Shown here: in pieces, positions 2,008-56,651 of the stretch | How positions within the stretch are numbered: position 1 is the first letter of the stretch | How the letters are laid out: each line of letters begins with the position of its first letter | Source: Megamerina dolium | Lineage: Eukaryota > Arthropoda > Insecta > Diptera > Megamerinidae | Assembly: GCA_963854835.1 (NCBI GenBank) | Contig: OY978526.1 | Span: 17,595,868-17,659,867, forward strand | DNA length: 64,000 nucleotides | Direction of reading: 5' to 3' | The notes under the pieces: generated by a model | What the model saw: only the letters and a program-made list of their open reading frames with translations | Told to the model about the DNA's origin: nothing | The model's database searches: none | Made by a program: the position numbers and the translations under genes

Positions 2008-2512
2008 CATTGAATTATATAGATCGTTCTATCGACTTAAATAAAGATTTCATACATTTCTCTAAATTTTATGTGTTTTTTGATTAGACTACAAATAATA
2101 TAACAATAAAAAGAAATTTACAATGATTCTAAGTAGATTTGGCCAAAAAATTTTATGAATGTAAAACAATGGCTTCCATATTTTGATATTTTATTATTCA
2201 AAGTTGATTTTACTTATATATTAATTGTTTCTGGAGCAAATATAATTAGAATTATATATATCTTTATATATCATTGTTGTAATTTGATTAATTTGATCCG
2301 CCCTAAGTAACGCATTTATAAATACACTTATATATTGTATGTACCAATAATGTTCAATAAAAAGTTAGACATTTATTGTGCGCAATCATTCACATATCAG
2401 CTTTACACTATCAATTAAATATCTGCTTTAATATGCAAAAAAGTACTTCAGCACTTTAGAAAATACTCAAGTACAAACATACAAAGATTAATATATTGCA
2501 AAAAATACTTAC

Positions 2513-2550
2513 ATAATTAAATTTCAGGTCGGGATGCATATAGTCAACAC
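2513..2550 (-). CDS. amon: amontillado (prohormone convertase 2), exon 4, 38-nt microexon
   Basis: On the minus strand a tctcactgtag-like acceptor ends at 2551 and a GTAAGT donor starts at 2512. The 38 nt between them complete the Gly codon split across intron 3 and continue as VDYMHPDLKFNY, which is the subtilase sequence expected directly after the catalytic-Asp motif IMDDG of exon 3. Phases agree: exon 3 ends in phase 1, this exon supplies 2 nt plus 12 whole codons, and it ends in phase 0. Intron 3 is only 112 bp (2551-2662). The exon is too short to stand out as an open frame. In PC2 proteins the next residues begin NAEASYDF; no such exon is visible to the left in this window, so the rest of the catalytic domain, with its His and Ser, lies off the left edge. 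Confidence 0.93.
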
Positions 2551-2662
2551 CTACAGTGAGTGTATCGAGAACGAAGCGAAAATGTACAAAAAAAGAAAAA
2601 TACATTTTTCAATTAAATTCATGATCATATATTGTATTTACTCGTCGTTACTCTTTTCTTAC

Positions 2663-3524: not shown

Positions 3525-4428
3525 CGAGGACGGTCCCAGAACTAGCCGACCTAACAAAGAAAACACAACAAATTTGGGAACATTTTTCTTTATTTCTCAA
3601 CATAATCTCCTTTTAGCTCTATACACCACTCCCAGCGATTTTCTACAGCTTCGATACACTGTTTATAGTATGAACTGTCTAGCTCATTAAAATAGCCATC
3701 TTCACTGTTTGCAAATCTTCTTGCAAAATAGAAAATAGTCCGAAGGAGCTAAATCTGGCGAATAAGGTGCGTACTGAAGCAATTCGAGCTTTAACTCATT
3801 GATTTTGGCCATCGCATTATCTTGATGAAACAACACTTTCTTGTTCGCCAAATGCGGCCTTTTTTCTTTAATTTCATCACTTAAACGCCGTTGATTTTTT
3901 TTTTCTTTTTGAAGATAATCAATAAAAATTATCCCAAGTGCATCCCAGACGCCATAACCTGGCCTGCAGATGGAATTGTCTTCGCCTTCTTTTCGGTCAA
4001 TATACGATATATAGCACTTTTTGAAATACCTGTAATTTCACCTAGCTCACGCACCTTCAGCTGCCGATCATCTAATACCATTTTGTGGATTTTCTTAACC
4101 GTTTCTGGTGTGGCCACCTCAATTGGTCGACCACTACGGTGTTCGTCTTGGCAGCTCGTACGACCTCGTTTAGCCTCTGCCACCCAATATGTTATGGTCG
4201 TAAACGAAGGAGCAGACTCCCGCAGAGTAGAATCTAGTTCGCCTTTAATACTCGTTGGACTGAGACCTTTAAAATGAAAGTATTGAAAAATACTAAACAA
4301 CGTGGCGCCTTAAAACTTAAAACTTAAAACATATGTTTTATAAGGTTGCCACTTTTTACCAAAATAATTTTTTTTCAAACTTCAGTCGCCATCTATTGTC
4401 AGGTTGGGTAGTTCTGGAACTGCCCTCG
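3525..4428 (-). mobile_element. Internally deleted mariner element with both terminal inverted repeats
   Basis: Both ends are visible. The left end from 3525 (CGAGGACGGTCCCAGAACTA...) and the reverse complement of the right end at 4428 (CGAGGGCAGTTCCAGAACTA...) match over about 30 bp with few differences. Each is flanked by TA (3523-3524 and 4429-4430), the mariner target duplication. The minus strand encodes a mariner transposase N-terminus from about 4278: helix-turn-helix region, then RSGRPIEVATPETVKKI and LKVRELGEITGISKSAIYRI. After LTE it jumps straight to KAKTIPSAGQVMAS, skipping the stretch that normally carries the first catalytic Asp. Further on, decayed frames still show KVLFHQDNA, APYSPDLAPSDYFLF and a C-terminal CIELKGDYVEK at about 3605. 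At 904 bp it is shorter than the usual roughly 1.3 kb. It sits in amon intron 2, in the same orientation as the gene. Confidence 0.9.
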
Positions 4429-6800: not shown

Positions 6801-7083
6801 CACTTTATGCACGAATATACATTATTTGGTACAAAAATATAATTTTGAATATATATTTTTAGACTTTTGTGCACTAAAGTATAAATCTATAGGGCCATCG
6901 ATTGGCATTGTGAATTTACATCATCAGAAGAAAATATCCAGCAAAAAGAGAAGATTATGTGAAAAACTATCTGTCTATTGATCTTTGACCTTAAGTCTTT
7001 TTCTATAAAGTTTAATAACCTTTTTCATTGCTTCTTTAATCAGTAATTTAACAGCTTATTATATAAATAAATCACCGACTTAC

Positions 7084-7191
7084 CAATGGATGACTTTTCA
7101 GTATGCGTGTATGAGGAATACTTCTTCTTGAGCGTGCATGTGGTAAAGTACGATGTTTGAAATGATACTCTTGATTATCGCTGCCTACCAA
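7084..7191 (-). CDS. amon: amontillado (prohormone convertase 2), exon 2: propeptide
   Basis: A 108-nt exon (36 codons, phase 0 at both ends) lies between a tttacag acceptor (ending 7192) and a GGTAAGT-type donor (GT at 7083-7082). It encodes LVGSDNQEYHFKHR, then LPHARSRRSIPH, then TRILKSHPL. The YHFKHR stretch and the multibasic internal site SRR|S match the second half of the PC2 propeptide, where an internal cleavage at a similar place assists release of the inhibitory propeptide. It joins in frame to exon 1 (...GFDNIGP) and exon 3 (IHTAIQQPGF...). Confidence 0.94.
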
Positions 7192-10100
7192 CTGTAAAGA
7201 AGAAAATACAATTAATTAATTTTTTGGATGAATTTCCAATCAAATTGTACATACGATATCTTTAATTATAGAGTAATAATACATTGAAAATATGTATATA
7301 AGTATTTAGTACTAGTACCATAAACAAGCAAACTAACAGCTATGTATATGAGACTATTATATGATAATAAGCATTTTCGCTTCAATACTCTGTTTTTAAT
7401 TACATTTTTCACATGGAGATGATTTCAGTATCGTTGTACAATGACATTGCCCATAAGAACTTTGATGATGACGACGACGATGATGATGATGATGATGCTG
7501 GTGTTGCTGGTGATAATTTTTGAGATGTTGAGAGCATACCAACCGATAATTAATGTTATAATTTTGTTATAATTGAGTGCCATGGTAAATGAAACAAAGC
7601 AAAATGTCGGACAAAGTGATGACAACTTTTTTTTTTTATTTGTTATTGTTGTAAGTAACAGCGCTGGTTAACTAACCTACATACTGTAAGTATGTATATG
7701 TTGAATTTACTTACTCAGCTTTGTTAAGCAAAATTCGCTGAAACTTTGAAATTGTAATACCAATACCCAAAGGGTGAACATTAAATATTGTAGATATATA
7801 CTTTCTGAACTACTTTATATAGTATATAGTATATATATTTGTTGCTCTTTGTTTTTTGATTTTCTACTGTCTGATAGGAATTGAGATAAATTACGTTTTA
7901 AATGACTCCATCGTGTATTGTATATAACGAATTAAATCGAATATAATCTTTCAAGCAACCAGTGCCTCAAATTGTTGCCACTTCTCACATTTCTTACACA
8001 TTATATCTTAAGCATCTCCAATTGCGAAAATGAACTTTACACTTTAATTTAATGTTAACGAATATCATCTAAGGGATGGTGGCAATGGAATTGAATATTA
8101 CATAGATAGATGGCTTGGTGTTGCAAATTATGTGTTTTTGACTTCACTATGCATCTGTAATTGCATAGAATTGTAATTCTCACATGTAATTTTTTGTTTG
8201 CTGTATTAGCGAAAATGTTCAAATCGCACCAAGCCACATTTATTTTACACAAAAACGCCCACAATGGCAATGGCGTGAAATTTAAGCAGTAAATGCTACG
8301 ATAGTTTTAATGTGCTCATAGCACTTGTACATATCGTACTATATATGCAGTGTACGAATATATACGCAATTTTAGCTTAGTTGGTACTTGTTTTTTATTT
8401 ATTCGCAAACTATTTTTCACTTACACTCTTGTCTATGCAAACATATGTACAAAACCACACCACTGAAATCAATTAAATTGTATTTGTGTGTGTGTGTGTG
8501 TTTGTGTGAAGGTTGCCATTTAATAGCATCAGCATTAGTAGTAGAACAAAAACAATAACAAGTTGTTTTCTCTGATTCTAATCCAATGAGAAATGTGTTG
8601 CTGCTGCTGCTGCTGCTGAGTTCTGAGTTAATTAATTCTTCGAATATCGCTACGTGATCCTTTCAAAGTGAGAGTGTATGGCATTGAAAATGAAATAAGA
8701 TACAAGTAATAATACATTTGCTTTTCCTTCCAACAAATTTTTACTTTATTCTTATTATATGTACGTATATGTACAATACTTCGCACAATGACGCCTTAAC
8801 CCTTAAAGGCTTAGTTCAATGTTGATATTTAATGTTTGCCAGCGGCAAATTATCGTTGCTTTAAAAAGTTTAATATGCAATTTTTCTCACACATTCCCAC
8901 ACCTGTACGCCTACATTGCTTCTAGTTGCACGTGTGTGGCATTACATTATTTACTGATGTTCTATTTTATTTTCTTTCCCCCCCAACTTTTCTTTATAAA
9001 GTATATTTTTAACTTTTGTCAAATTTTTGCTTTAAACAAAACACAAAACAACATTATTATCATCATCATTAGCTATAGGATTGTCAGTACTAAGCTTATG
9101 CGCATTGTAAGGTTATTATTTTTATATATATTCGTATGCCTTTGGTTTTTGTTTTCTCTTCACTGAACTTTTCTTCATTGGCTTCATGTTATTAGTACAT
9201 AGCCAGTGCTTGTTCTGAGATCAAGTAATGATGAGAGATGGCTTAATATGAAAAATATGTTAAGGGGGAAAAATTCTACGCATATTTTATATATATTATT
9301 TTTATTTCGATCAATTTTCACGTTTCGTGCTTATGTTGATTTTTCTATTTTTTATTTTTATAATTTTTTTTTTACTTTTTTATTTCACTTTAAATATTGA
9401 TTTTGCAATTGAATTTTTAAACATTTCGTCCATATTATTATGCTTTCATCGAGAGATATTTTGTGGTAGTCATTGAGTGAAAATCTCAATTCAAGTGATT
9501 CAAGCAGTAATTTTGGCAATCATAAAATATAATAGAGGGATATGCATTCATACATAATATTGAACTTCTGTTCTGCTCAAGTTCTCCCCACTTCTCTAGA
9601 TTTGAAACATCAAAGAAGTTACCAAGGTTACCATTTCACCAAAAATTTAACAAAGCGCGTAATTATTTATAGAATAAAGTGTAGTTAGTCGAATATAAGT
9701 CATAATATACCCTTCAATGTAACTGAGGAATTAATTGTTGCCCTAAACTAACCTTACCTAATATTTCTATAAATAAAACATGTTCCTACCTATATGTAAG
9801 TATGTAAAATATTTAAATAGCGTCTATTATGTCTATTCGTTTATGTGTAAAAATAAGTAATTACATTGCCAACAAAATAAAACAACCACATAAAGCAAAG
9901 GTGTACGTAAAAGTACTAAAATTAACATAAATTACAAACATTCTTATTATTCACACGCAAATATTTTATATTATACTATTTATATATTGGCGTGGCCTGA
10001 CGCCAATATCTTATAATAGAAAGTAAAATGGAGCATGATTTAAAAACACAAACTAAGGGTATTCATTCGAATACATAAAGTTGGCATTTATACGCGTGAG

Positions 10101-14351: not shown

Positions 14352-15779
14352 ATGAATTTGAAATCTCGTGAGTTATATATTCCATTAATTTTCCACAACA
14401 ACATATGGATGCACGCATACAGCAGAATCCGTAGGTTCCTTACAACACACTAGATTACCTGTTTGTGGGCAATAGTTCCAAGAAACTGGACGAAACTTTG
14501 CTCTCCCAGATGCGAACACATCTGGACTGGGACGGGCAAAAGTTCGACAACGTAAAAAATAGTAACTATTGGCAGTACATACGCTTTTTCTACAAACTGC
14601 AGTGCTACAATGAGGAGAACAACTTCAAAAACTTTGCGCTCATCCCAATCAAAAAATTCGGGACGCATCACGTACGGTACGACTCGTCTCAACTGCACGC
14701 CACACTATGTAGTCTTGGTCTGTTTAAGGGTCACTGGAAGGCGTTTAAGCCTAACAGAGATGCTGAATGGCGCAAGTATTTCGAGTTCCCTGGGACCACA
14801 TCGAAAAAGTTCGGTTATTCAATGATGACGGACGGCGTCAGCATATCATTTTGCATGGATAAGACCCTGCAGGTAGCAGCAGCCACAATATCGCGGGTCA
14901 AGTGCCACAAGAAAGCTAATGATTATGCTGGGGATTTGAGTAAAATACAAAATACCGATTACGACATCAAAATCGGTCTCGATCCCGGCCTCCGTCTCAT
15001 TGTGAGGGGAACTCGGAATGGCTTGCCGCTGAAGATCTCCAATAGCAGGTACCAACACAAGGCAAGGTACCACTCAAGGAAGATGAAGCTGCAACGCTGG
15101 ACACAGACCTAGACTAGCGAAAATATCTCGGAAAAAGAACGGAAGTCGGGGCAACTGTCACCGTACTCAGCACCGTACTCAGCTGATTTTCGCCAAGCAA
15201 GAGATATTTTCACAGAGACGAGTCACGCACCTAAAGCTACAGAAATTTATATGCACTGAGAAGGCAGCACACCGCATAGATCATAGGCACCGATCTTAAA
15301 GCGACTGGATCCAATGCGTTGGTATGCATTGGATCAACCACCATCGCTGCGAACTCGCCGATGCGTGATTATATCCGAACGCCAAAGCCGAAACTGATCT
15401 CTGCGCTGAAGAGCCGCGGCGCTGACATAATGTATGTGAACGAGTTCTGGATGACGAAGTTGTGTGGGAAATACCACGCCGAGAACATCACGTACCGATC
15501 TCCACACAAGTACCAATTTTACCCAAATTGCCGTACTAGATGGAATCGGGACGTCAACGCTGGTGTGAACATCCTCTACATTGGCGAGTGCCTCATCGGG
15601 GGAATCAAGACGCACAAGAATTTCCACCGGAACAATGTAAGTTGAATCTAAAGCACTATTGAGAATTTAACATCATTAATCAGTCACTATTTCATTTCTC
15701 TTTTCAGAAAGATGAGCCCCCTGCGAAGAAGAAGAAGAAGCAACCAAGTACCACTAAGAGATGTACAGTGGTTACTTGA
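14352..15779 (+). pseudogene. Fanzor: eukaryotic TnpB-like RNA-guided nuclease gene, broken
   Basis: Fanzors are the eukaryotic relatives of the IS605/IS607 TnpB (OMEGA) nucleases, RNA-guided DNA endonucleases usually carried by transposons. A 215-codon plus-strand frame (14465-15109) contains the RuvC-I motif DIKIGLDPGLRLIVRGTR (Asp codon at 14981). A second frame (15319-15636) contains TIAANSPMRDYIRTP, the RuvC-II segment MYVNEFWMTKLCGKYH (Glu codon 15442), a remnant zinc-finger segment and the RuvC-III segment CRTRWNRDVNAGVNIL (Asp codon 15550). A 71-bp intron (15637-15707) joins in phase to KDEPPAKKKKKQPSTTKR and a stop at 15777-15779. An N-terminal piece in another frame (14352-14450, containing IWMHAYSRIRRFL) runs into TAG at 14451, so a 1-2 nt shift separates it from the main frame. 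After TAG at 15110, about 200 bp contain stops in all frames, including a tandem ccgtactcag duplication. The zinc finger shows CGKY and YPNC where families of this kind have two CxxC pairs. The segment is richer in G and C than the surrounding intron, as expected of inserted coding DNA. It lies opposite to amon. Total length about 450 codons. Confidence 0.85.
15637..15707 (+). other. Spliceosomal intron within the Fanzor relic
   Basis: AAT|GTAAGT donor at 15636/15637, a pyrimidine-rich stretch and TTTTCAG|AAA acceptor at 15707/15708. Removing 71 bp keeps the frame (phase 0) and adds 23 codons, of which PPAKKKKKQPSTTKR looks like a classical nuclear localisation signal. Read-through without splicing ends after two codons past the exon (VS-stop). 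Confidence 0.8.
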
Positions 15780-15811
15780 CCCTCTTCATCCATTTTATGG
15801 GGGTTAAACCT

Positions 15812-16315: not shown

Positions 16316-17264
16316 TCTCCTTACAGTCGGCTGGGGCCGACCAAATTATACCCTGCATATGTAGATATATATATATATATATAAAGTTTACTCGAATATC
16401 CATCTCTTTTTTTTATTTCCACTTTTTGAAAAACAATTTTTGCATATACTACTAATTTACACCCGAAATATGGTTGACTTTGACGAAGTACTTTCTATGT
16501 TATGAGAGTTCTAAAAGGGATAATTTAAAGGAGGTTTTTAAGATAATTCCGAGACTTAGTATGGGAGCTATATAAAAAGTTGGCGTGGTTTACCTCTTTC
16601 TTGTAAATCCAAAAAATTTTTCAATATTAATCCACACCTACGTCCTACGCTTAATAGTTCGTACGTTATAGTGGTTTAAATTTTTAGCCCCATTAAGAAG
16701 TGGGGGTGGCATGTTGATTTTTTGCCAGATTATGTACAACTACCATATTAACCTAAGTATTAATTATGATTGTTCTAGACAGAAGATTGCAGAAGAGAGC
16801 TACGCTAAAAAGTAAGCGGTGCTCAACCACTTTTGGCGAGGTTATATGGTAGTATAATATAAGTCTATGTATAAAATATTGTTGTCCCAAGTGGTATATT
16901 ATGTGAGTTATAGCAAGTTAAAGATTTTGAAAATTTCGAGGTTAGTCGCTTTGAATGCTTGGTGTGGGCGTGGTTATTGACCGATCATGCCCAATATCAA
17001 TCCCCTCCGTACCCTTGGATCATAGATTACTTATGCCAAATTTCATCGAAATAGCTCAATATTTACTCAAGTTATCGTGCGAACCAGCCAGGTGACAGAC
17101 AGACGGACGGACGGACGGACGGACGGACATCGTGAAATCGAAAATTTAATCGACGCTGATCAAGAATATATATCTATGTCTATATCTCCGGAGATTCCTT
17201 CAAGTGGACACAAACATCTGACCGAAATGAATATACCATGCATATTGCATTATGCAGGGTATAA
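16316..17264 (+). mobile_element. Unclassified repeat element, short copy (A)
   Basis: Starts near ctccttacagtcggctgggg, a perfect short hairpin (GTCGGC-tggg-GCCGAC), followed by TATACCCTGCATA (16348-16360). It ends with the inverse TATGCAGGGTATA (17251-17263). An internal landmark is a (GGAC)n run near 17100-17127 following gacagacaga. The same components occur in reverse order and orientation at 25508-28356, so the two form one family. There is no transposase. The class is unknown: the short inverted ends suggest a DNA transposon derivative, the one-sided hairpin recalls Helitron 3' ends, but no CTRR terminus is seen. Confidence 0.7.
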
Positions 17265-18904
17265 TAATGATAATGAGAGATGAATTAATACATATGGTGA
17301 AGTACACCAGTACGTAGGCAGGAAAATAATCAAGTTAAGAGGATCAGATAAGACAAAAACCTATACCATTGGGACATTCAGCATGGCAGCGGGAACAACC
17401 AAAATAACAATCTCATCACATATGTCTTGTCCTTTACCATTGTCATCGGTTGTTAAGTGACAGCAATGAATGTATGGCGGTAGCGTCGTAATGATGGCAA
17501 TATATATGTGTATATTTTTTTGCTATTAGAATCTATTTTGAGTTGCTAAAAGAAAATATCAACACACATGCACACACACATGATATAATGTTATTTGACA
17601 GTGGCAACATGATGAATGTGATAATGTACCAGCCAAAATATGACAACGACAGATATATAAGTATCATATGAGTATATGTAATAAGCAAGTGTCGCATACT
17701 TTAATCTAAATTTGTATACATGTATTTACACATATGCAGCAAGTTGTCCTTATCTTTATAACATACGAAGCAATGTCTAACCTGCCTGTAAATATATTTT
17801 TAAACTAATTACATCAATGTTATATTTTCCATTAAATCATTTCACGAAAAATTATTTATGCTTTTGCATCCTCCATGAAAATTTCCTTCGTCTTGCACTC
17901 TTCGATCATTGCCACTTTGCTCTCTTATCGTCATGACTTTAGTGGTTGTTAGCTAAGCTCTGCATGTGTTCTTAACAATAATAATTGATGCAGATTATCG
18001 TGGGTGTTGCTGATATGTTGTCGTCGTCGTCGCCTCTGAAGATATGCTCTACTAATTTGGTTTTACTTTGCAAAACATTAACTTGAATGTGCGGGTGTAC
18101 TATGATCCATATTAGAATGTCTAATATGCTCATATGTTTCTTTTTCTTTTTTGTGTGTTTTCTTCAATATTCACTGTTGTTATTATTCTACTTAGCTTTT
18201 TGCTACATTTAAATATGCACGCGTGTGCATGTTGTCTGATTTTGACGCTATATCCCGCTATGAAATATAACACAATGTCGTGACAAACACCAAGCACCAA
18301 CACTAACGTTATTAACGTCAAGAACTTATGGATTATGCATGTATAATACATAAATACATCAGGCACTTATTTGCACATACAATATATATATATATATATA
18401 TATATGAATTCGTATATATGCATATGTATAATATATATTTTCAAAAGTCCCATATATCAACTATTGTATATACGCACGAATACTTCTATACATCATTTCT
18501 TTATACTTCATCTTGATTTTTTTTTTTTTTTTTTTGTCACACTTTTCAGTTGTGGGTGTATTCTTACGCATATACATATACACTTATACATACTTGAGTT
18601 CGTCGCATATTCATATGTAACATATGTACGTGTATGAGTATGAAGAATAATGCAAAAATTATACTATAATCAAAATAATGTATATTACATATACATACAA
18701 GTATATGTGTAAGTATGTACAGTATGTTTGTATATAGGTAAGTGGATAAAATTGCTTGCATTAGGAAGTCGCTCATTTTACTGCATTGAAAGCTTTATCT
18801 TCATACTGTAATTAATTTATGAGAATATACACGCCCATACATATGTATAAAGATTAGAGTGGATTAAAAAAAAACTCATGTTGCCCATGGAGCATAACAT
18901 CTTT
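17265..18904. other. Intron stretch, nothing identified
   Basis: AT-rich with short TA and TAC/CATA runs (18382-18405, 18540-18720) and a poly-T tract at about 18518-18535. No gene or mobile element recognised. Confidence 0.5.
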
Positions 18905-33306: not shown

Positions 33307-34570
33307 ACACCGTCCGACACACATGTTTCAACACTTGAGCAAGACTTATGCAAGTATATATTCTAAATGTAGAGCTCAAAACAAGATACCCGTATCTGGC
33401 CGGCGAATTTTTCACCAGCAAAATCATTCGCCATGGACAGGAACAGGTAGGTATAAGGTGGATGCATAAGAACCTCCCAACCAAGCTTCCGGAGCTTCTG
33501 GCGAGTCACTATCGATGTGTGTGGTCTGGAGTTGTCCTGATGAGACACAATTCCTCTCCTATTGGCCAAAGCTAGCCGCTTCTGGGCGATTGCTTCTTTC
33601 AGATGGTCCAATTGTTGACAGTACAGGTCCGAATTAAGAGTTTGGCCGTAGGGGAACAGCTCATAGTAGATGATTCCCTGCCAATCCCACCAAACACATA
33701 GCAAAACCTTCCTGACCGTCAATCCTAGCTTGGTCACCGTTTGCGCCGGCTCACCGCAATTAGACCAAGACCGTTTTCACTAGACGTTGTCGTAAGTGTC
33801 CCACTTTTCATCACCAGTAACCATCCGCTTCAGAAATGGATCGATTTTGTTGCCATTCAGCAGAAATTCACAGATGGAAATTCGGTCCATGAGGTTTTTT
33901 TGCGTTAACTCGTGTGACACCCATACATCAAGCTTCTTTTTGTATCCAGCCTTATTTATATGGATCCAAACAGTTTTTTGTGTTTAGCTCCTGGGCAATA
34001 GAAACAGTGCTTACATGACGACCAGACTCGACGATTTCCATAATTTCCTAATATTTTCGACAATTGGCCTTAAAGAGCGTGGTGCATCTTTGACAACAAA
34101 ATTACCGGAACGACATCAAAATATCAGGACACATTTCCAGCCGTCTGGTTTGCGTTTTCGCCTTTATCGAAGAAAAACTGTAAAATATGGCGTATTTTCT
34201 CTTTACTGGTGTTCATCTTTGACGCAAGCTCAAACAATACTGAGTCAAGCAATCACAAAACTGCCTGAAAAGTTTATTTAGTACGAAATCCAATCTTTCT
34301 AACGCCATCTAGAACCGCCGTAACCCGATCGCACTTATACAACCCGAGATACAGATTACTAAATCCATCTAATGGAAAAATAATGGATTTACTACACCTG
34401 ATATAAATATGATGTACGACGTATGAGTAACATAAATTTTCAATAAATTTGGGTCTAAGAAATGTAACGAATTATTCTATAAAATTTTTTGTTTTTTTTT
34501 TTTGTCCTACTTTCAGAATATACTGGGCTTGCTCATGTATCCACGTTAAGTTGAATTTTGTTGGTTAATG
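33307..34570. mobile_element. TIR element with a mariner inside (nested)
   Basis: The left end, TA|ACACCGTCCGACACA then 'gagcaagact', matches the ends at 19734 and 39637. The right end near 34525-34570 ('gcttgctcatgtatcca', 'gaattttgttgg') matches the right end of the 39.6-kb element. The approximately 1 kb in between is largely a separate mariner. The boundaries are less certain on the right. Confidence 0.55.
33390..34402 (-). mobile_element. Truncated mariner transposase relic
   Basis: The minus strand of 33363-33737 reads VRKVLLCVWWDWQGIIYYEL, YGQTLNSDLYCQQLDHLKEA, LANRRGIVSHQDNSRPHTS and KLRKLGWEVLMHPPY, a mariner catalytic core with the second catalytic Asp (HQDN). The usual PPYSPDLAPSDYHLF block is deleted: PPY jumps to TYLFLSMANDFAGEKFA, removing the third Asp. 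N-terminal fragments continue to about 34.3 kb with stops. The upstream terminal repeat is visible as 'ggatttactacacctga' followed by TA at about 34386-34404. The downstream terminal repeat is missing where the sequence switches to the flanking element near 33400. Confidence 0.85.
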
Positions 34571-45200: not shown

Positions 45201-46912
45201 CGTTAAGGCCCTAACATTAAATAAATTATGAAACCTTTATCAAAAACCCCAGAATCATCCTTGTTATTTTTTGCTCTTTACCATTTTTCCGGAAAACACT
45301 TACTCCTCCCATTGGTTGAACACCTCCACAAAATTGAAATTCTTATAAATTTCACTTCCACCGCTCCCAAATTGCCACTAGAGGGGAAAATATATAACCA
45401 ATCACAATTACTTTTCCCTGTTTAACATTTTTGCTGAAAATACATAGTCTCAATTTTTACTCCTTAGAAAAGCTTCAATACAAAATTAACTACAAATCAC
45501 ATCATAATTATCTAGGAATGGGCCGTAGAGCTGTGAGATGTTCCCCATTTAATACTTCTGCCTCAACATTCTCCTGTCGAGAAAGACCCGTTCAAATTTA
45601 CAAGTATTCATCATCATCATTGTCATATTTTAATTTCATCTTATATCAAAATAAGACAAATGTAAAAGTAAAGAATAAGATGTCACATCATAAATGTGAT
45701 ATGTACATATATATGTACATACATAAGTGATAATAATAATCTATGGGTATCAAAAATATAATTTTATGTTATTAGTGGTTAGATATTTTAACCCTTAGAT
45801 TATGAATAACATAAGAGTATTTAGACATATCCACAATGAGAACGTAGATTTTTGAATGAATTTGCGGTTAAAGATATTCTCTATGCTAGTGCCTATGAGA
45901 ATTTCGTATCAAATCACATTCATATTTATAAATGAAGTACCATTATATGTATGTTACGCTTAAGCCGATTTATATTTTTAATGCATAACAATTTATCATC
46001 GCAATTCCGCGTTACATTCAAAACAATATTTTAAGGTTTAAAGTCATATTTTAGCTTCATATGACAATAATTTTAGTTTAAGAGTTCTGTTGTTTTCACA
46101 TTGGTAAGAATAATAATTGTATTAAATTACACTCATCTGATAATAAATGTATTGTATTTACATAAATATGTAAACACAACATTAATTAATGAATACGAAA
46201 TGAAAGGTGAATCAACTTTAATGACACCCAACCCACTCATCTGGAGTATTTGGCATATTGTTCAAATGAACTTGTCATTTAAGCTATTGGATTGAAAGTG
46301 TCATGCTACATAAAGTAACTAAAGATCGGAAACAGCGAGTTAATAAGTTTATTTTTAAACCAACAAACATCGAAATGTTATAACGCTCTTGTTGCCACAT
46401 ATTGTCGATGTGTTGTTCACAATTCACCACCCAAGCTAAATTACTAAGTAAATCGAAAAAGGCCTAAAATTAAGGATGTGAAATAGATGGTCCGTTCATA
46501 AATAAAAATAATAAAAGAAAATGCATGAAAATGAAGACGCCCCAAAATGTGCTATGACATTTTTTCATTTTATTTTGCATATTATATATGTGTAAACAGC
46601 CAAAGAAACGGGCAAAAGTTATTTAAATGCAAAACAAGTTTTTTTTGTTTTCCTTTTTTTTTTTCTTTCTTTTTTTGTTTTTTGCTGTTTCTCTCCTTTT
46701 TCGAATTAATTTTATTCTTCCCTCTGTATTGTTGTATTAAATACAAAATGCTGGGTGTACCCATTGGAAAATTGTGTGCTGTGTCAGCTTTTTGTAGTCG
46801 AATTTAAATCATCCTAATAGGTAGGGCTTTTAGATTAAATCGTTGTATCGTTCACTTACTGAGCAAAAACGTGTGATCGTCGACGAAATACTGGTTCACA
46901 AAATCTCTAATA
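42255..46912. other. Intron stretch, nothing identified
   Basis: Contains a CTAA tetranucleotide run at about 42301-42328 and many homopolymer A and T tracts. Frames at 45228-45730 do not resemble known proteins and lack gene structure. Confidence 0.5.
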
Positions 46913-47435
46913 GCCTAGACAGACGGCAGCCTAATTCCGGATTACCGAGTTAATTCGAATTAACTCGGGCATTAACTGCAGCTAATCCGCATAAACTCTA
47001 TGAGTTAATTCTCAAATAAAAGAGGATTAGGGCAATTTACGATGGCAACACTGCTGAAAATTGTCTATTGTGAATTTTTCTCGATCCATTTTACAAAATA
47101 TTAGGTGTGTTCGCTAACAAATAACTTTCAACAATTGTTTACAGTATTCAACATGAAAAGTGTTGGCGAACAAATAAATCCAGCTGTCAATTATGAACGG
47201 TGAATGTCAATTTACAAGTTTCTGATAGTTTTCAGTTCACGTACTTCTTGTAGATCTTCTCATATCGAGAGTGATAGATGACAGAAATTGATAGTGATAG
47301 TAATGTAAGTGGACAGACCTAATAAAACAGCAATCAGTCGTTTAGTTAATCCGCAATACTGCCGTCTGTCAGGTTATTATTTTATTCGGATTAAGTGCGC
47401 CGGTAATCCGGAATTAGGCTGCCGTCTGTCTAGGC
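46913..47435. mobile_element. MITE, 523 bp, with ~35-bp inverted repeats and TA duplication
   Basis: The left GCCTAGACAGACGGCAGCCT followed by AATTCCGGATTACCG is matched exactly by the inverted right end (cggtaatccggaatt then aggctgccgtctgtctaggc). TA flanks both sides (46911-46912, 47436-47437). Just inside the left end is a second perfect palindrome (ccgagttaatt/aattaactcgg), and gccgtctgtc recurs internally at about 47370. There is no open frame of note, so it is a non-autonomous DNA transposon. The superfamily is not assigned. Confidence 0.9.
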
Positions 47436-47437
47436 TA

Positions 47438-48071
47438 TAACAGAATAAACTTTGAAATTTTTGAGTGTCTTCTACTCAAATATGTGATTTTCCAAAAAAT
47501 GTTTGGGTCATATGGATATTCGGTAAATGACCATTTGCATTTGGTTGTCTGCTGTATTGATTTATATTATTTTATACGCAGTGACATGTACCGGATTAAT
47601 GCGCTAAAACACACAAAAAAAAATTGGTAAAATTCCAATTTCAAGTTCCAAAGGGGCTTCTAATATGTAGACGTCAAATTTTTGAGTTATTATTATGGAA
47701 TTATAGAGTTCAACCTTAAGCAGTAATAAAATCCAACTCATCGAACACTTCTAGTTTAATTTTAACGAGTTTTTTGGAAACGAGTTTTCTGATCGTTGTT
47801 GCAAAAAAAGTGATCCAAGTCATTTTTTGTCGTCCTCACTTGAAGTAAATATTTTCCCATCTAAATAATTTTTGGTGAAACCAGATCAAATGATTATGCC
47901 AAGGGTTCTGATCTTGAAAATATGTGGAATTTAGTATTAGACACCATTCACGCGGTAAAAGTTTTTTAGCGAGTAGCCAATCTTGTTCGAGGCCACGCAT
48001 TTCTATTTATCAATTCTGATCATTTCTGTTTAAGTGACTCATACCATTTATCCAGCTGACGACAGTACACC
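47438..48071. other. Intron stretch, nothing identified
   Basis: No gene, RNA or mobile element recognised. Confidence 0.5.
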
Positions 48072-48875: not shown

Positions 48876-49640
48876 TTCACTTACTTATGTGGCCATAACA
48901 ACCGAATATCGATTTAGGCCGAAAATAACATGCTTCGCCAGCCATCTCTGTTCTTCGCTAGCTGGCGCCAGTTAGAAATTCCAAGCGCCGTCAGGTTCTC
49001 CAGTACTTGGTCTTTCCACCGGAGGTTTGGTCTTCCTCTTTTGCGTCGTCCTCCAGCGGGTTCCGAATATAACACCTTCTTAGCTGGAGCGTGTTCTTCC
49101 ATTCGCTCGACATGACCTAGCCAGCGCAGCCGCTGGATTTTGATGCGCTTTACTATGTCAATATCGGCATACAGCTCGTACAGCTCATGGTTGTACCTTA
49201 TTCGGTACTCGCCACCAACGCAAATAGGTCCAAAGATCCTGCGTAGGACTTTTCTCTCGAAAACCCCAAGTATTCGCTCATCCGAGGTGGAAATTGTCCA
49301 GGCTTCAGCGCCATATGTTAGGACAGGCATGATGAGAGACTTGTAGAGTGTAGTTTTCGTTCTTCGAGAGAGGGCTCGACTTCTCAATTGCTTACTCAGC
49401 CCAAAGTAACACCTGTTAGCAAGAGTTATCCTACGCATGATCTCCAAGCTGACGTCATTACTGCTGTTAATGCTGGTTCCAAGATAGACAAAGTCCCTTA
49501 CTACTTCAAAAGCGTAGTTGTCAACAGTGACGTGCTGTCCAAGACGCCGGGACTCTTTGTTTGTTGACACTAGATACTTCGTCTTGCCCTCGTTCACCGT
49601 GAGACCCATCCGACGCGACTCTCTTTCCAACTCTTTCCAA
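48876..49640 (-). mobile_element. 5'-truncated non-LTR retrotransposon (LINE), copy 1
   Basis: The minus strand holds a 238-codon open frame (49630-48917) encoding the C-terminal end of a LINE reverse-transcriptase protein: LTVNEGKTKYLVS, VRDFVYLGTSIN, MPVLTYGAEAWTIS, ERKVLRRIFGPI, then RWLGHVERMEEHAPAKK and RKRGRPNLRWKDQV. These are standard in LINE ORF2 C-termini. The catalytic YADD part is missing because the copy starts downstream of it, the usual outcome of incomplete target-primed reverse transcription. The 3' end shows the short tail TAAGTAAGTG, matching copy 2 (TAAGTAAGTAAG). It lies in amon intron 1, same strand as amon. The intact frame suggests a fairly young insertion. Confidence 0.93.
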
Positions 49641-50500
49641 CTTCAAGACTATCAAGACTATTTTGTTTATAGATGTTTATCTTTTGTGAGGAATTTCTTC
49701 AAGAAATTCAAGCATGAACGACAAGCTATGTGATTCAGTAGACCCCGTTCCTCTATACCAGTCGTAGAAATACTTATTTGGATATGAAAACATGTTTTTT
49801 GAGAAATGAATATCATTGGATAACAGCAAGATGTACCACATTCGTTCTTTATGAAATGTCTACTTCCAGTGCTGGTCAGGATCTTTCAAATCAATGTTGC
49901 AATGTTAAAATAATAAAAGTATTTGTTATTCAACATAAAACTAGCAGGAATTTTAAATGACAATTAGTCAACTTTCCTGCTGGGTAAATAAGTTTATACT
50001 ACCGTATACACTCACATACTACACAGCCAATGATAATAATAATAATAATAGTAGCAACAACAACAAAAAATACAATATCCAGATTTGGGAATTCCTATGG
50101 CTCTAGAGTTGTTCACCATATACAAAATCTCTAAATTTCATTATTGTTTACTTTTTAGGGGTTCTTCCTTCGTTCGTTCCTACATGATTCGTAGAGTATG
50201 ATTTCTAGAGAGGGTTAAACAGACATATTATTTATGTTGCAACTGATGATGCTACTACGTTGACGTCAACGACGGCAACGACGTTAAAAATAATTGATTT
50301 TTCCCACATGACGCTTAACAGTATTTGACAGGCGGCGACTGAGTAGAAGAAATATTGGGATATGTAAATACAGCTATAAAAATAAGTGTGTATATTTATA
50401 GATGTTTGTTTTTTGTTTTTAACAAAAGTTATCCGTATTATGACATATACACAAGCACACATGTGGATTAAAACATCGATTTATTTATTGTAATACTTAC
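49641..50500. other. Intron 1, gene-proximal part
   Basis: AT-rich with an AAT run near 50034-50052. No gene recognised. Ends at the exon 1 donor. Confidence 0.5.
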
Positions 50501-50758
50501 AGGACCAATGTTGTCAAAACCATATTTGGCAGCTACTGTATGAGCGAAATCATTGTCGACGCTGCGTTTAAAACGGACCAAAAATGAACTGGTAAATACA
50601 TCATTACCGGCCATTCGTACACCATGTTCATGACCAGTTACTGTGCTGGGTAGCACACTAATTGCAAGGATCAGAACACATAAAGTACCAAACACATAGA
50701 CAAGCAGACTCCAGCAATTTGGATAGTGGCGTTGGCGCCCCCATGATGCAAAAATCAT
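50501..50758 (-). CDS. amon: amontillado (prohormone convertase 2), exon 1: signal peptide and start of propeptide
   Basis: 258 nt, 86 codons, ending GGT CCT|GTAAGT in phase 0. I place the start at the ATG at 50758-50756 (MIFASWGRQRHYPNCW...), because upstream in-frame codons contain no other ATG before a stop at 50806-50804. A strong hydrophobic run (WSLLVYVFGTLCVLILAIS) forms the signal peptide. Then come FTSSFLVRFKRSVDNDFAHT and VAAKYGFDNIGP, the first half of a convertase propeptide. It joins in frame to LVGSDNQEYHFKHR in exon 2. Exons 1-4 together give 225 uninterrupted codons. Promoter and 5' untranslated exons, if any, lie at higher coordinates and cannot be placed. Confidence 0.93.
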
Positions 50759-53700
50759 TGCACGCCTCAACAATATTGCCTCTCTGAGAGTTTGTGTGAT
50801 TTTTCACTTAATATTTCGATTACTTTTTATGTGATTTATTGTGGGTTTTTTTAATGAGTTTATAGAATTATGAGAATATTTTCATCCCAATGTATTCGTA
50901 TTTTTTAAGAATTTTTTTTTTTTATAGTACGTAAGCAACACTTTTGTATCTGCGGTAGGTGAGTGTGTGTGTTCTCAAAATTTGACACTTGCCAAAAATG
51001 AACTTGAATATGAATGAATTGTTTTGTATTATATAGGTGAGAAATTTTTATACACTCATCAACATTACCACTTTTACCACTATACACACAACACATACAC
51101 ACATACACTTTAAATTGTGTGAATATGCGCCACGAATAATCAAAAATTAATAATTTGTTTGTTCAACACACCCGTAAAGTAGGCAATAAATTGTAATATT
51201 GTTGAAAGTTCAATTTCAAGTACACACAAAGTCTCTGTTTTCATTTATTATTCACTTTTGTTTGCTTGCTTTTTTCGCTTCTTGCAATTAATTGTTGGCT
51301 TTTAGTACAACAATAATTTCTTTCCTCGTTCAATGCAAATATATACATGCATGCATGTATGTATGTATGTAGATATCTACTTAATAGTTTTTTAATATTT
51401 ATATGTGTAAGTATGAGTATTTTCTTACTTATTCCGTCAACTTGTACTTAACAGTTACGCTTACCGAGTAAAACTGCTCTTATTCGTCAATGGACGCCAT
51501 TATGAATATAGACGGGGAAAAAAAAATCTACTATCTGTTTATGTAGATTAGAAGCAGGAACCTGCAAAGTAGTAATGAATTAAAAAAAAATCAAAAAAAG
51601 CTATACCGACGACATCTGCAAATGTAGAAAGCTTTCATATCATAAAAGCTATCTGGCTTGACATACGGCTGTTTACCCCCACTTGTTGTATGGGTTCTGC
51701 ATATACGTACATAGATATGTATGAACATGTGTAAGTATGACGAACGTATCATATGCTTGGCGCAATTTCTTTTTTGTTTTTTCGTATTTTGTTTTGACAA
51801 ACCTCCAATAACTTTACATACAATACTTATAAAAATTGTATGCATGGATGCGCGTGCTCTTCTCACAACAACTTTTGTATAGTTATGGTAGGTGGCGCTC
51901 TAATAGCATGGCGTCCTACTGTGTATGCAGTAATTTCACTATATTACTGTTGTTGTTGTTGTGAATTTGTTAGGCATCCGCACGATAAAAGTCGGCATTA
52001 GTCAAACAGCCGTTTTGGATTTACTTATTCTTGCTGCTGCTACTGCTGCTGTTGTTGTTGTTGTTGTTGTTGCTTACAGACGTCACTAATTTTAACGATT
52101 GTTCATTTTATTCTAGTCGTTGCCAATGTCGGTGTCGGTGTCGGCGTCAGTGTGTAGTCGAATTTCTTATGAATGTTTATCAACAACAATACATTTGTAA
52201 TTTGCTTCAAGTTTTTTTAATTCAATTTTTTTTCTACTTTGCGCGCATCATTTTGCGTTGATTTCTTCATTGTTTTTTCTGCATTTCCTCTCTCTCTCTC
52301 CCTCCTTTACTCCCACTCTCTCTGTCTCTCTCTATCTCTTACTCAAATATTTTATAATTTCAATTGTTTGTGTGTGTGTCTCCGTACTCGTTGTTTTTAC
52401 GGATGTTAAGTCGTTTATTGTAGCAAAATCATTTGCGAGTCAAAACATTCGCTTATGTAGCGATACATATGTGAATGTACATACCAGCCATGTGCTCTTA
52501 TGAGACCATGCGATTGGCTTCTGTTCAATTTGAAAACATATGGTAGCCTATTTTTGAAAATAACCCCAACCTTTGGTAGGGATTCTAACTATTTTGCTAA
52601 AGGACATAATTTTAAAAGTTTTCCTCGAAATTTTTAATCCTTAGTGATGACCTACAAAAATTTGGGAGTTTGGAAATGTAAAATAAGAAATTTTGTTGGA
52701 AATCGAGACCTTTATAGACTAAAGTTATGATATTTACATAACAGCTGTTCGAATTGTAGCATGTAGCATGTGGCTTTCTAGTATTTAATATCAAACATAC
52801 TAACTAATAGAAATGATTTGACAATTTGATTGAAGAAGAGGTCCTTTCTCCGTAACTATAGAACTCCGTAACTATGGACCTTTGCACACGGAAATATAAA
52901 TTGCTCGACGCTGAAATAAGAACGGAAAAATCAATACCTGTGCTATACTCGGTTAAGAGGTCTGTTAACAAGGAGATACAGAATAAAGCCCAGCATGGCC
53001 TGATGGCTATACAAAGCGGTCATAAAACCAATACTTGTCTGCTATGTTGGAATCTAGTCAATATCAATCTATAAAAAACTTTACAGTTACCTTCTGTACG
53101 ATAAAAATACGATTAACAGCTTTCCTATGCATAATAAGTGCTGCAGGCTCAACCAGTCCTATAAACTCTATATTACATTACATCATCTGCTCCTCGTCAT
53201 AGAACTTTATTTGCATTAACATTGCATAAATATCAGTCACGCTACACATCCATGGGTTCGAACCGAATACGATCACTCAAAAATCCTAGGACAATGCACC
53301 CATAATATCAAAAAACACTGAATCCGACAAGTTCACTACGCACTTATCTTATAGAAAAGAGTGGATTCTCTTCGATGCTGAAAGAGACCATTCATTGTTT
53401 ATGAAAACGGACGGATATACGCTGGATGGAAAAATAGAATCATTACAGTAATTACCTTTTCACTATCAGACAATGTCGATTATCTCTTAAAGAGACAGTG
53501 GCGCATACAATATGCATACATTATTTAGATGCCTCGGCACAGTGATATTTTAGGGATCAATGACATCAGCGAGTTATCGCTGGAGTCGTACGGAGCAAAA
53601 TTTTGATAATCTAGCACAGCAAAATTACTGTTGGATCATTTAAAGCATTTGTTCCCAAGGATGCAAAAAAGCGGTCCAGATTTTGGCATTATAAAAGCAT

Positions 53701-54880: not shown

Positions 54881-55995
54881 CATAACCACCGAATATCGAT
54901 TTAGGCCGAAAATAACATGCTTCGCCAGCCAACTCTGTTCTTCGCTAGCTGGCGCCAGTTAGAAATTCCAAGCGCCGTCAGGTTCTCCAGTACATGGTCT
55001 TTCCACATGGTCTTTCCACCGGTCTTCCTCTTTTGTGTCGTCCTCCAGCGGGTTCCGAATATAACACCAGCGCAGCCGCTGGAATTTGATACGCTTTACT
55101 ATGTCAATATCGGCTCGTATAGCTCATGGTTGTACCTTATTCGGTACTCGCCACCAACGCAAATAGGTCCAAAGATCTTGCGTAGGACTTTTCTCTCGAA
55201 AACTCCAAGCATTCGCTCATCCGAGGTGGAAATTGTCCAGGCTTCAGCGCCATATGTTAGGACAGGCATGATGAGAGACTTGTAGAGTGTAGTTTTCGTT
55301 CTTCGAGAGAGGGCTCGACTTCTCAATTGCTTACTCAGCCCAAAGTAACACCTGTTAGCATGAGTTATCCTACACATGATCTCCAAGCTGACGTCATTAC
55401 TGCTGTTAATGCTGGTTCCAAGATAGACAAAGTCCCTTACTACTTCAAAAGCGTAGTTGTCAATAGGGACTTTTTGTTTGTTGACACTTGCCCTCGTTCA
55501 CCGTAAGACCCATCCGACACGACTCTATTTCCAACTGCTCGCGTGTTCATGACGATTATGTCAATATCGTCGGCATACGCTAACAGCATGACACTTTTGT
55601 TAAAGATAGTGCCATTATGTCGTAGATCAGCAGCTCGTATTATTTTCTCCATAATAAGATTGAAGAAGTCGCACGATAACGAATCACCTTGTCTGAAACC
55701 CCGTTCGGTACTAAACGGTGCGGAGAGGTCCTTCCCAATCTTCACTGCACAATGGGAGTTATGCAGTGTCATTCTACAAAGTCGAATGAGCTTTGGAGGA
55801 ATACCGAACTCAGACATTGTTGCGTAGAGGTAATCCCTTACCGGACTGTCGAAAGCGGCTTTATAATCAACAAATAGGTGGTGTGTGTCGATCTGTTTTT
55901 CTTGGGCCTTCTCCAGGATTTGGCGCAGTGTGAAAATCTGGTCGATGGTGGATTTACCAGGTCTGAAGCCACACTGATAAGGTCCTATCAGATTG
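54881..55995 (-). mobile_element. 5'-truncated and rearranged LINE, copy 2
   Basis: Same family and strand as the copy at 48.9 kb. It extends further upstream, covering the reverse-transcriptase core: CGFRPGKSTIDQIF and IDTHHLFVDYKAAFDS near 55.85-55.97 kb, MSEFGIPPKLIRLC, STERGFRQGDSLSCDFFNL, and the catalytic YADD (55566-55577) in LLAYADDIDII. Downstream, a deletion fuses NTRAVGNRV to the ESRRMGLT region, and smaller deletions remove parts of the C-terminal domain. The 3' tail is TAAGTAAGTAAG at about 54864-54877, next to 'ttattcg'. Non-functional. Confidence 0.92.
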
Positions 55996-56651
55996 CTAAC
56001 GAGTAAACCGCCATTAAAAAATTAAACGCTTTCAACGTGTATTCATCATACCGTAAATTACCCCACTCAAAAGTATAACTACCATTTACCATATGCTCAT
56101 ACACATCACAACACAAAATATACTCCAATACTCCATATATACAATATAAGTAGATAAGTGGAAAGAAATGTAACAAAAGGAAACAAAAATCTGCTTATAC
56201 GAGTATACATACGAGTATGTATAAACATACATATGTATATATATGTATGGAATTTATGACGTCAAATGAATGAAAGCCATAAAACGAACAGCCCCAATTA
56301 CACAAACGGTATTTGCTAAAGTAGAATGTACTTGAATAACCACAAAATCAGGCGAAATGAAGCCATTATGTATCTATGTATATAAATCGTTGATGCTCAG
56401 CAATATACATACATACTCAGACATACTAGCAGTGTATGCATGAATATGAACCATATATATGTACGAGTATATTTGATAATGGGAATATTGTACGTATTTA
56501 CATATAAAAGCGATTTACATTAAGATTGTGGAAAATGTAGAATTAAAGGAATTAATTTATTACACATTTGTGTGGTATTTATTACGCTTCTTGCAATCCA
56601 AAGTCACGGAAGCATATTCATTGATGCCATGACTATGGCATCATGGCTTTG
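55996..56651. other. Intergenic stretch, nothing identified
   Basis: AT-rich with TACA/TATG runs. No gene recognised. Confidence 0.5.

Follow-up and report, generated by a model that had tools for sequence, protein, structure and literature searches.

The 64,000-nucleotide stretch of the Megamerina dolium genome analysed here (contig OY978526.1; hereafter the window) very probably holds, at 14387-15809, an inactivated and 5'-truncated copy of a gene for Fanzor1, a TnpB-like RNA-guided nuclease. The copy lies antisense in what is likely intron 1 of an amon-like gene and belongs to a family represented in the genome by 131 3' ends and at least 27 full-length exon 1 frames. What is chiefly of interest is not the window but the Fanzor1 family elsewhere in this higher fly, which was under selection and has likely moved recently.

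A sequence-only reading of the window had named the gene a Fanzor, and this identity is supported by a Pfam profile, database searches, a profile search of the PDB, structure prediction, and two structure comparisons. The frame at 15280-15645 matched PF07282 (Cas12f1-like_TNB) at 27.1 bits, with a cut-off of 26.3, and the N-terminal frame alone had no Pfam match. The chained frames matched 20 database proteins at E <= 0.001, the best at 2e-113 with 48% identity and 98% query coverage; eight of the 20, with lengths of 469-550 amino acids (aa), reached E 3.2e-105 or better at 46-50% identity. Because single-sequence searches of the PDB were nearly empty (no match for the N-terminal frame; E 0.02 at best, to LaTranC, for the C-terminal frame), a profile search was needed. 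Its 13 hits were headed by SpuFz1 (4e-16) and included Fanzor2 (4.5e-7), LaTranC (6.7e-7), GtFz1 (3e-6), and TnpB (0.12); PpFz1 was absent from them. When the predicted structure was used, all three solved Fanzor1s ranked first in both structure comparisons, at 14-20% sequence identity. NCBIfam guided_TnpB, the profile for prokaryotic TnpB, was rejected for the window's C-terminal frame, which scored 16.9 bits with a cut-off of 100. Against TnpB and other RuvC families, Fanzor1 in the form of SpuFz1 was thus the top match. The published Fanzor1 motif consists of the RuvC residues D, E, and D and the pattern D-X(125,275)-[TS]-[TS]-X-X-[C4 zinc finger]-X(5,50)-RD (PMC3627910). An intact copy of the family, L016, carries it as D331, T498-T499, C502/C505/C521/C524, and R530-D531.

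In blastn and tblastn comparisons with an intact copy, DNA homology covered 14387-14442 and 14440-15805. The match opens around position 121 of the intact protein sequence, which marks the relic as 5'-truncated, and extends close to the family 3' end. The sequence-only reading had set the span at 14352-15779; its end is the stop codon of exon 2, but its start lies slightly too far left, since homology opens at 14387. All three RuvC motifs that it had reported are present on the plus strand in the correct order (Table 1). Its statement that all three catalytic acids survive is right for Asp, Glu, and Asp and needs qualifying for the surroundings: the zinc ribbon is broken, two of its four cysteines being Tyr, and the [TS][TS] pair that precedes it in intact copies reads MT. 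The relic therefore departs from the published Fanzor1 motif despite keeping D/E/D. Compared with intact frames, it also bears one short duplication and one deletion near 15158-15200. At sites invariant in 18 intact copies, its private changes numbered 14, 17, and 26 at codon positions 1, 2, and 3 (358 codons), a substitution pattern that looks relaxed, not wholly neutral. Its lowest synonymous divergence (dS) to any intact copy was 0.288, reached with L002 and L003. In sum, the relic is the inactivated fossil of one insertion, without a full-length protein product.

The family gene has two exons, encoding about 560 aa and a lysine-rich tail; most Fanzor1s comprise 600-700 aa (PMC11423790). 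The second exon and the intron before it add to the sequence-only account, which left them unmentioned. The intron measures 67-82 nucleotides in the family. Among 22 distinct 3' tails, one of them that of the window, the splice sites read GTAAGT in 21 and TTTCAG in all 22. Exon 2 of intact copies likewise encodes a lysine-rich tail (for example DEPPAKKKRKTPSATKS), which resembles a nuclear localisation signal.

Searches of the 500.5-Mb genome returned 157 matches to an N-terminal query (E <= 10) and 151 to a C-terminal query (E <= 0.001), both lower bounds that count matched stretches rather than copies. Among the matches listed, at least 27 lie in stop-free frames of 568-569 aa, which comprise exon 1 and a few residues before the start; the earlier guess of intact copies in other parts of the genome was right. 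These frames do not amount to 27 independent complete elements, since several are clustered and at least one, L039, has lost its 3' end. Fanzor copies are crowded at C5:51.8-60.5 Mb and C2:5.7-6.8 Mb, many of them near-identical, possibly through local bursts or segmental duplications. For 18 distinct intact coding sequences, the summed ratio of nonsynonymous to synonymous divergence (dN/dS) was 0.18, with a median of 0.20 and a range of 0.11-0.38 (142 pairs with dS > 0.03; 11 of 153 pairs were dropped for low dS). These sequences carry the mark of purifying selection, which, because intact frames alone were used and the pairs share branches, speaks for the history of the family and not for present activity. 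The Fanzor literature, as far as our incomplete coverage goes, turned up no family in a schizophoran fly, which is no proof of absence.

The 3' end of the element is marked by a 33-base motif; when at most 3 mismatches are allowed, it has 131 occurrences in the genome and none in a reversed control. Seven of eight old copies were recovered with it, and the eighth, L044, weakly (score 32 in pairwise alignment). In many copies the motif is followed by a palindrome that differs by subfamily and then by unrelated flank. Judged by eye in 34 distinct insertions, the palindrome is clean or nearly so in 23 (three arm types plus one variant), damaged in 4, and lacking in 7, the window relic among them. 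Palindromes of 7-14 bp were mostly beyond those of shuffled sequences (0-5 of 200; 17 of 200 for L023). In all eight copy pairs compared (97.7-99.8% identical), the two sequences part ways where the terminal palindrome ends (five pairs, within a base) or inside it (three pairs). Three copies within 35 kb of one chromosome are 99.5-99.8% identical and have different right flanks, the right side being the one seen, which argues that some family members have likely moved recently. Common 3' ends beside differing flanks also support the earlier view that such genes are spread by transposons, although the carrier and its transposase were not identified; the data favour carriage of the family by a eukaryotic mobile element.

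Left ends were rarer than 3' ends (two types, with 36 and 3 examples), and those that could be paired with a right end by position lie 1.7 to 13.7 kb from it. Those of L029 and L015 differ from those of L025 and L038, and similarity is confined to a short TTTAAAC in L029 and L015. Neither 13-bp terminal inverted repeats nor TTAN duplications were seen at five left ends (L029, L015, L025, L038, and L022), few full-length copies being readable on both sides. Fourteen right flanks were checked as repeats for empty sites, and none yielded a repeat that reached the junction among the loci examined; the flanks of L028 and L023 had repeat matches further out from it. In L029 with L041 (C2:84.81-84.83 Mb), the 5' part of the long members contains a tandem repeat whose period is 191 bp, and lacks a large transposase frame. 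A repeat at 46907-47438 of the window aligns over 452 columns, at 91.6% identity, with a stretch within the long 5' part of the L029 Fanzor element, where it has an inverted partner.

The last 74-89 nucleotides of four subfamily ends fold into three successive stems (z -6.35 to -7.86), and 0 of 200 shuffles fold as well. Stem 1 keeps its sequence whether it lies inside the coding tail, as in some subfamilies, or behind the stop codon, as in another; stem 2 begins at TGA, and stem 3 is the terminal palindrome. In 15 of 17 distinct tails, two with a shortened or partly deleted stem 2 being excluded, 92.2% of cells pair, compared with 33-54% when the partners are slid. The folding case is strong, and the covariation case weak. 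An Rfam search of L029, whose 9.9 kb include an intact element, came back empty. For Fanzor1s of insect viruses, a three-stem reRNA running into the flank has been described (PMC10711439, section 27), which makes a flank-encoded guide the natural reading here as well: the end of the element may encode a candidate omega RNA whose guide lies outside the element.

We put forward, as a tentative proposal that falls somewhat short of probable, that the family is a living Fanzor1/omega-RNA transposon of a higher fly. Tens of copies would make a selected nuclear RNA-guided nuclease, with one flank guide per insertion and a replaceable terminal palindrome as the last stem, and cutting of empty sites would drive spread or retention. 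On the main reading given at the outset, the Fanzor protein would enter the nucleus via its basic tail and bind RNA from the last 75-90 nucleotides of the element, three stems of which the last stands at the very edge, and the host flank attached to this RNA would be the guide. The nuclease would cut DNA matching the flank, for instance a site left empty by excision or an allele that lacks the element, and repair of the cut would copy the element back. Such copying back after cleavage has been proposed for TnpB. Transposition itself would need another enzyme.

A number of observations weigh against the main reading or its parts. Compensation in stems 1 and 2 is limited to two pairs, a count that 18 of 500 column shuffles reached; the corresponding figures were 56 for the percentage paired, 60 for the covariation score, and 496 for the number of further pair types. 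DNA hairpins serving a transposase would yield the same folds. The 7 of 34 insertions without a terminal palindrome count on the same side, as do the common 5-bp palindromes, which were not beyond shuffles (16-93 of 200). No target-site duplication judged by eye at the five left ends was convincing, no clear terminal repeats were found at the left ends read, and no transposase of the carrier element was found. To these are added the clustering of many of the 27 full-length frames, the non-independence of the pairs behind a dN/dS drawn from intact frames only, and the profile search in which one Fanzor2 and LaTranC came slightly ahead of GtFz1.

The strongest competing account, in our view rather unlikely, takes the 3' stems as DNA hairpins for a single-strand transposase of Helitron2- or IS200-like type, with Fanzor using another RNA or not working at all. 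The 131 3' ends far outnumber the 36 and 3 recognised 5' ends, as in Fanzor1-bearing Helitron2 families (PMC3627910), and the terminal palindrome changes between subfamilies yet stays palindromic, both of which would suit such hairpins. The genome further contains 33 Rep-domain matches, among them an open frame of 1120 aa for a Rep-helicase of Helitron type (L043, C1:110468030-110468572). However, this locus, the one of the 33 that was compared with the element, gave chance-level matches only and has no ends in common with it. The sequence of stem 1 is constant both in coding position and behind the stop codon, and three stems at the edge of the element match the reRNAs of insect-virus Fanzor1s (PMC10711439), which speaks for RNA. 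The two roles of the 3' stems are compatible and can coexist.

That the relic is an integrated piece of an insect DNA virus of nudivirus or baculovirus type, not a fly transposon copy, seems highly improbable. Fanzor1s are known from insect viruses (PMC3627910), and the best viral fold match of the fly protein is a Tipula oleracea nudivirus "transposase" (A0A0B4VG12; 32% identity, template modelling [TM] scores 0.80/0.71), a viral gene likened by fold. In contrast, the at least 131 dispersed 3' ends, the common termini beside unrelated flanks, and the spliceosomal intron point to a transposon, two scans of viral contigs revealed no relative, and no viral neighbours were noticed at the loci examined, although viral genes were not searched for systematically. 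The family may still derive from a virus in the distant past. A bacterial TnpB- or Cas12f-like gene, brought in through contamination or a recent transfer, can practically be dismissed, as can a different RuvC-fold nuclease: the domain bears the names of Cas12f and TnpB in Pfam and NCBIfam, but the TnpB score is far below its cut-off, solved Fanzor1s are clearly in the lead, and the conserved GT-AG intron, copies across five contigs, and insect-gene surroundings speak against contamination.

Compared with the solved Fanzor1s, namely SpuFz1 of Spizellomyces punctatus (8gkh, 9ceu-9cez), PpFz1 of Parasitella parasitica (9cf0, 9cf1), and GtFz1 of Guillardia theta (9cer), the fly family stands apart by its animal host, its low identity to them, and its shorter protein. 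The Fanzor1 families MDe-1 to MDe-13 of the Hessian fly (Mayetiola destructor) likewise reside in a fly genome and are likened here by description, not by sequence; the Hessian fly is a lower fly, whereas the neighbouring gene in our window indicates a schizophoran fly. The Hessian fly was the only insect with Fanzors in a 2013 survey (PMC3627910). Elements of ascoviruses, granuloviruses, and nucleopolyhedroviruses, including that with SfAV Fanzor1, resemble the fly family in having Fanzor1 as their sole gene, and their three-stem RNA at the 3' edge (PMC10711439) has a candidate counterpart there. Terminal inverted repeats of 13 bp and TTAN duplications are described for them (PMC3627910); neither was found in the fly family, which has far more copies. 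The Helitron2 elements CRe-1, 2, and 3 of Chlamydomonas, which carry Fanzor1, likewise show many more 3' than 5' ends, together with truncated 5' sides and deletions in the interior (PMC3627910). Asymmetric terminal inverted repeats, a 5' hairpin, and a Helitron partner are described for them (PMC3627910), whereas the Helitron2-like features seen in the fly family are the 3' hairpin and the excess of 3' ends.

The host gene is recognised by its exons (Table 1). The frame at 50468-50803 alone scored 20.5 bits with PF16470 (cut-off 25.5) and, when joined to 7075-7215, 52.8 bits. As both exons lie on the minus strand, the relic is placed antisense in an intron of about 43 kb, which is likely intron 1, provided that no small exon escaped recognition. 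The joined pro-domain exons and the catalytic-domain-like exon support the earlier placement in amon intron 1. The name amon (PC2) is presumed, on the sequence-only reading and general knowledge, no direct search with an amon sequence having been made, and we likewise take GVDYMHPDLKFNY to be a catalytic-domain motif.

Table 1. Features of the Fanzor1 relic and of the amon-like host gene in the window
Feature	Position	Strand	Remarks
Fanzor1 relic, 5'-truncated, frame-broken	14387..15809	+	blastn/tblastn against intact copy; Pfam PF07282
Exon 1 remains, four pieces	14388..15636	+	frame changes near 14441, 15160, and 15279; in-frame TAG at 15110-15112
RuvC-I motif IGLDPG	14972..14989	+	Asp codon 14981-14983; G-L-D-P-G invariant in intact copy A1
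RuvC-II motif VNEF	15436..15447	+	Glu codon 15442-15444
Zinc-ribbon cysteines	15463..15531	+	Cys at the first and fourth sites, Tyr at the second (15472-15474) and at the third (15520-15522); compared with C502, C505, C521, and C524 of A1
RuvC-III motif WNRDVNAG	15541..15564	+	Asp codon 15550-15552
GT-AG intron of the Fanzor gene, 71 bp	15637..15707	+	22 distinct 3' tails compared
Exon 2 with its stop codon, encoding the lysine-rich C-terminus KDEPPAKKKKKQPSTTKRCTVVT	15708..15779	+	
Decayed counterpart of the candidate omega RNA scaffold	15748..15809	+	stem 1 kept (one compensated pair), stem 2 partly broken, palindrome unrecognisable
First coding exon (within frame), amon (PC2)-like gene	50468..50803	-	S8 pro-domain, below cut-off alone
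Next recognised exon, amon-like gene	7075..7215	-	second part of pro-domain
Frame with catalytic-domain-like stretch GVDYMHPDLKFNY, amon-like gene, near 2.5 kb	2459..2608	-	

Another frame of the window, 412 aa long, had 25 protein matches; the 18 that carry an organism name we take, from those names, to come from schizophoran flies, the lineage having been checked for Rhagoletis zephyria only. On the plus strand, a repeat with a GGAC microsatellite within it occupies 16340-17270, from near ATTATACCCTGCATA to near ATGCAGGGTATAATAATG; to us it recalls interspersed elements common in flies. Further features lie on the minus strand: a Mariner-type transposase relic at 33363-33776 (PF01359, 78.3 bits), another recognised by eye at 3702-4309 (HTH_32 match below cut-off), and two stretches that by eye resemble fragments of non-long-terminal-repeat reverse transcriptases, at 48914-49642, where Pfam gave no match, and at 55099-56021.

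As a fossil within an intron, the relic matters little in its own right. The Fanzors solved or biochemically tested in the cited literature come from fungi, algae, and viruses. With its 27 full-length frames, signs of purifying selection and recent movement, and candidate flank guides, the fly may make the role of a Fanzor testable in a live animal; should the proposal of a living Fanzor1/omega-RNA transposon be true, it would offer an animal for genetic tests of the natural job of Fanzors. The dipteran branch, with a nudivirus protein as its best viral fold match, may also bear on the passage of Fanzors between viruses and animals.
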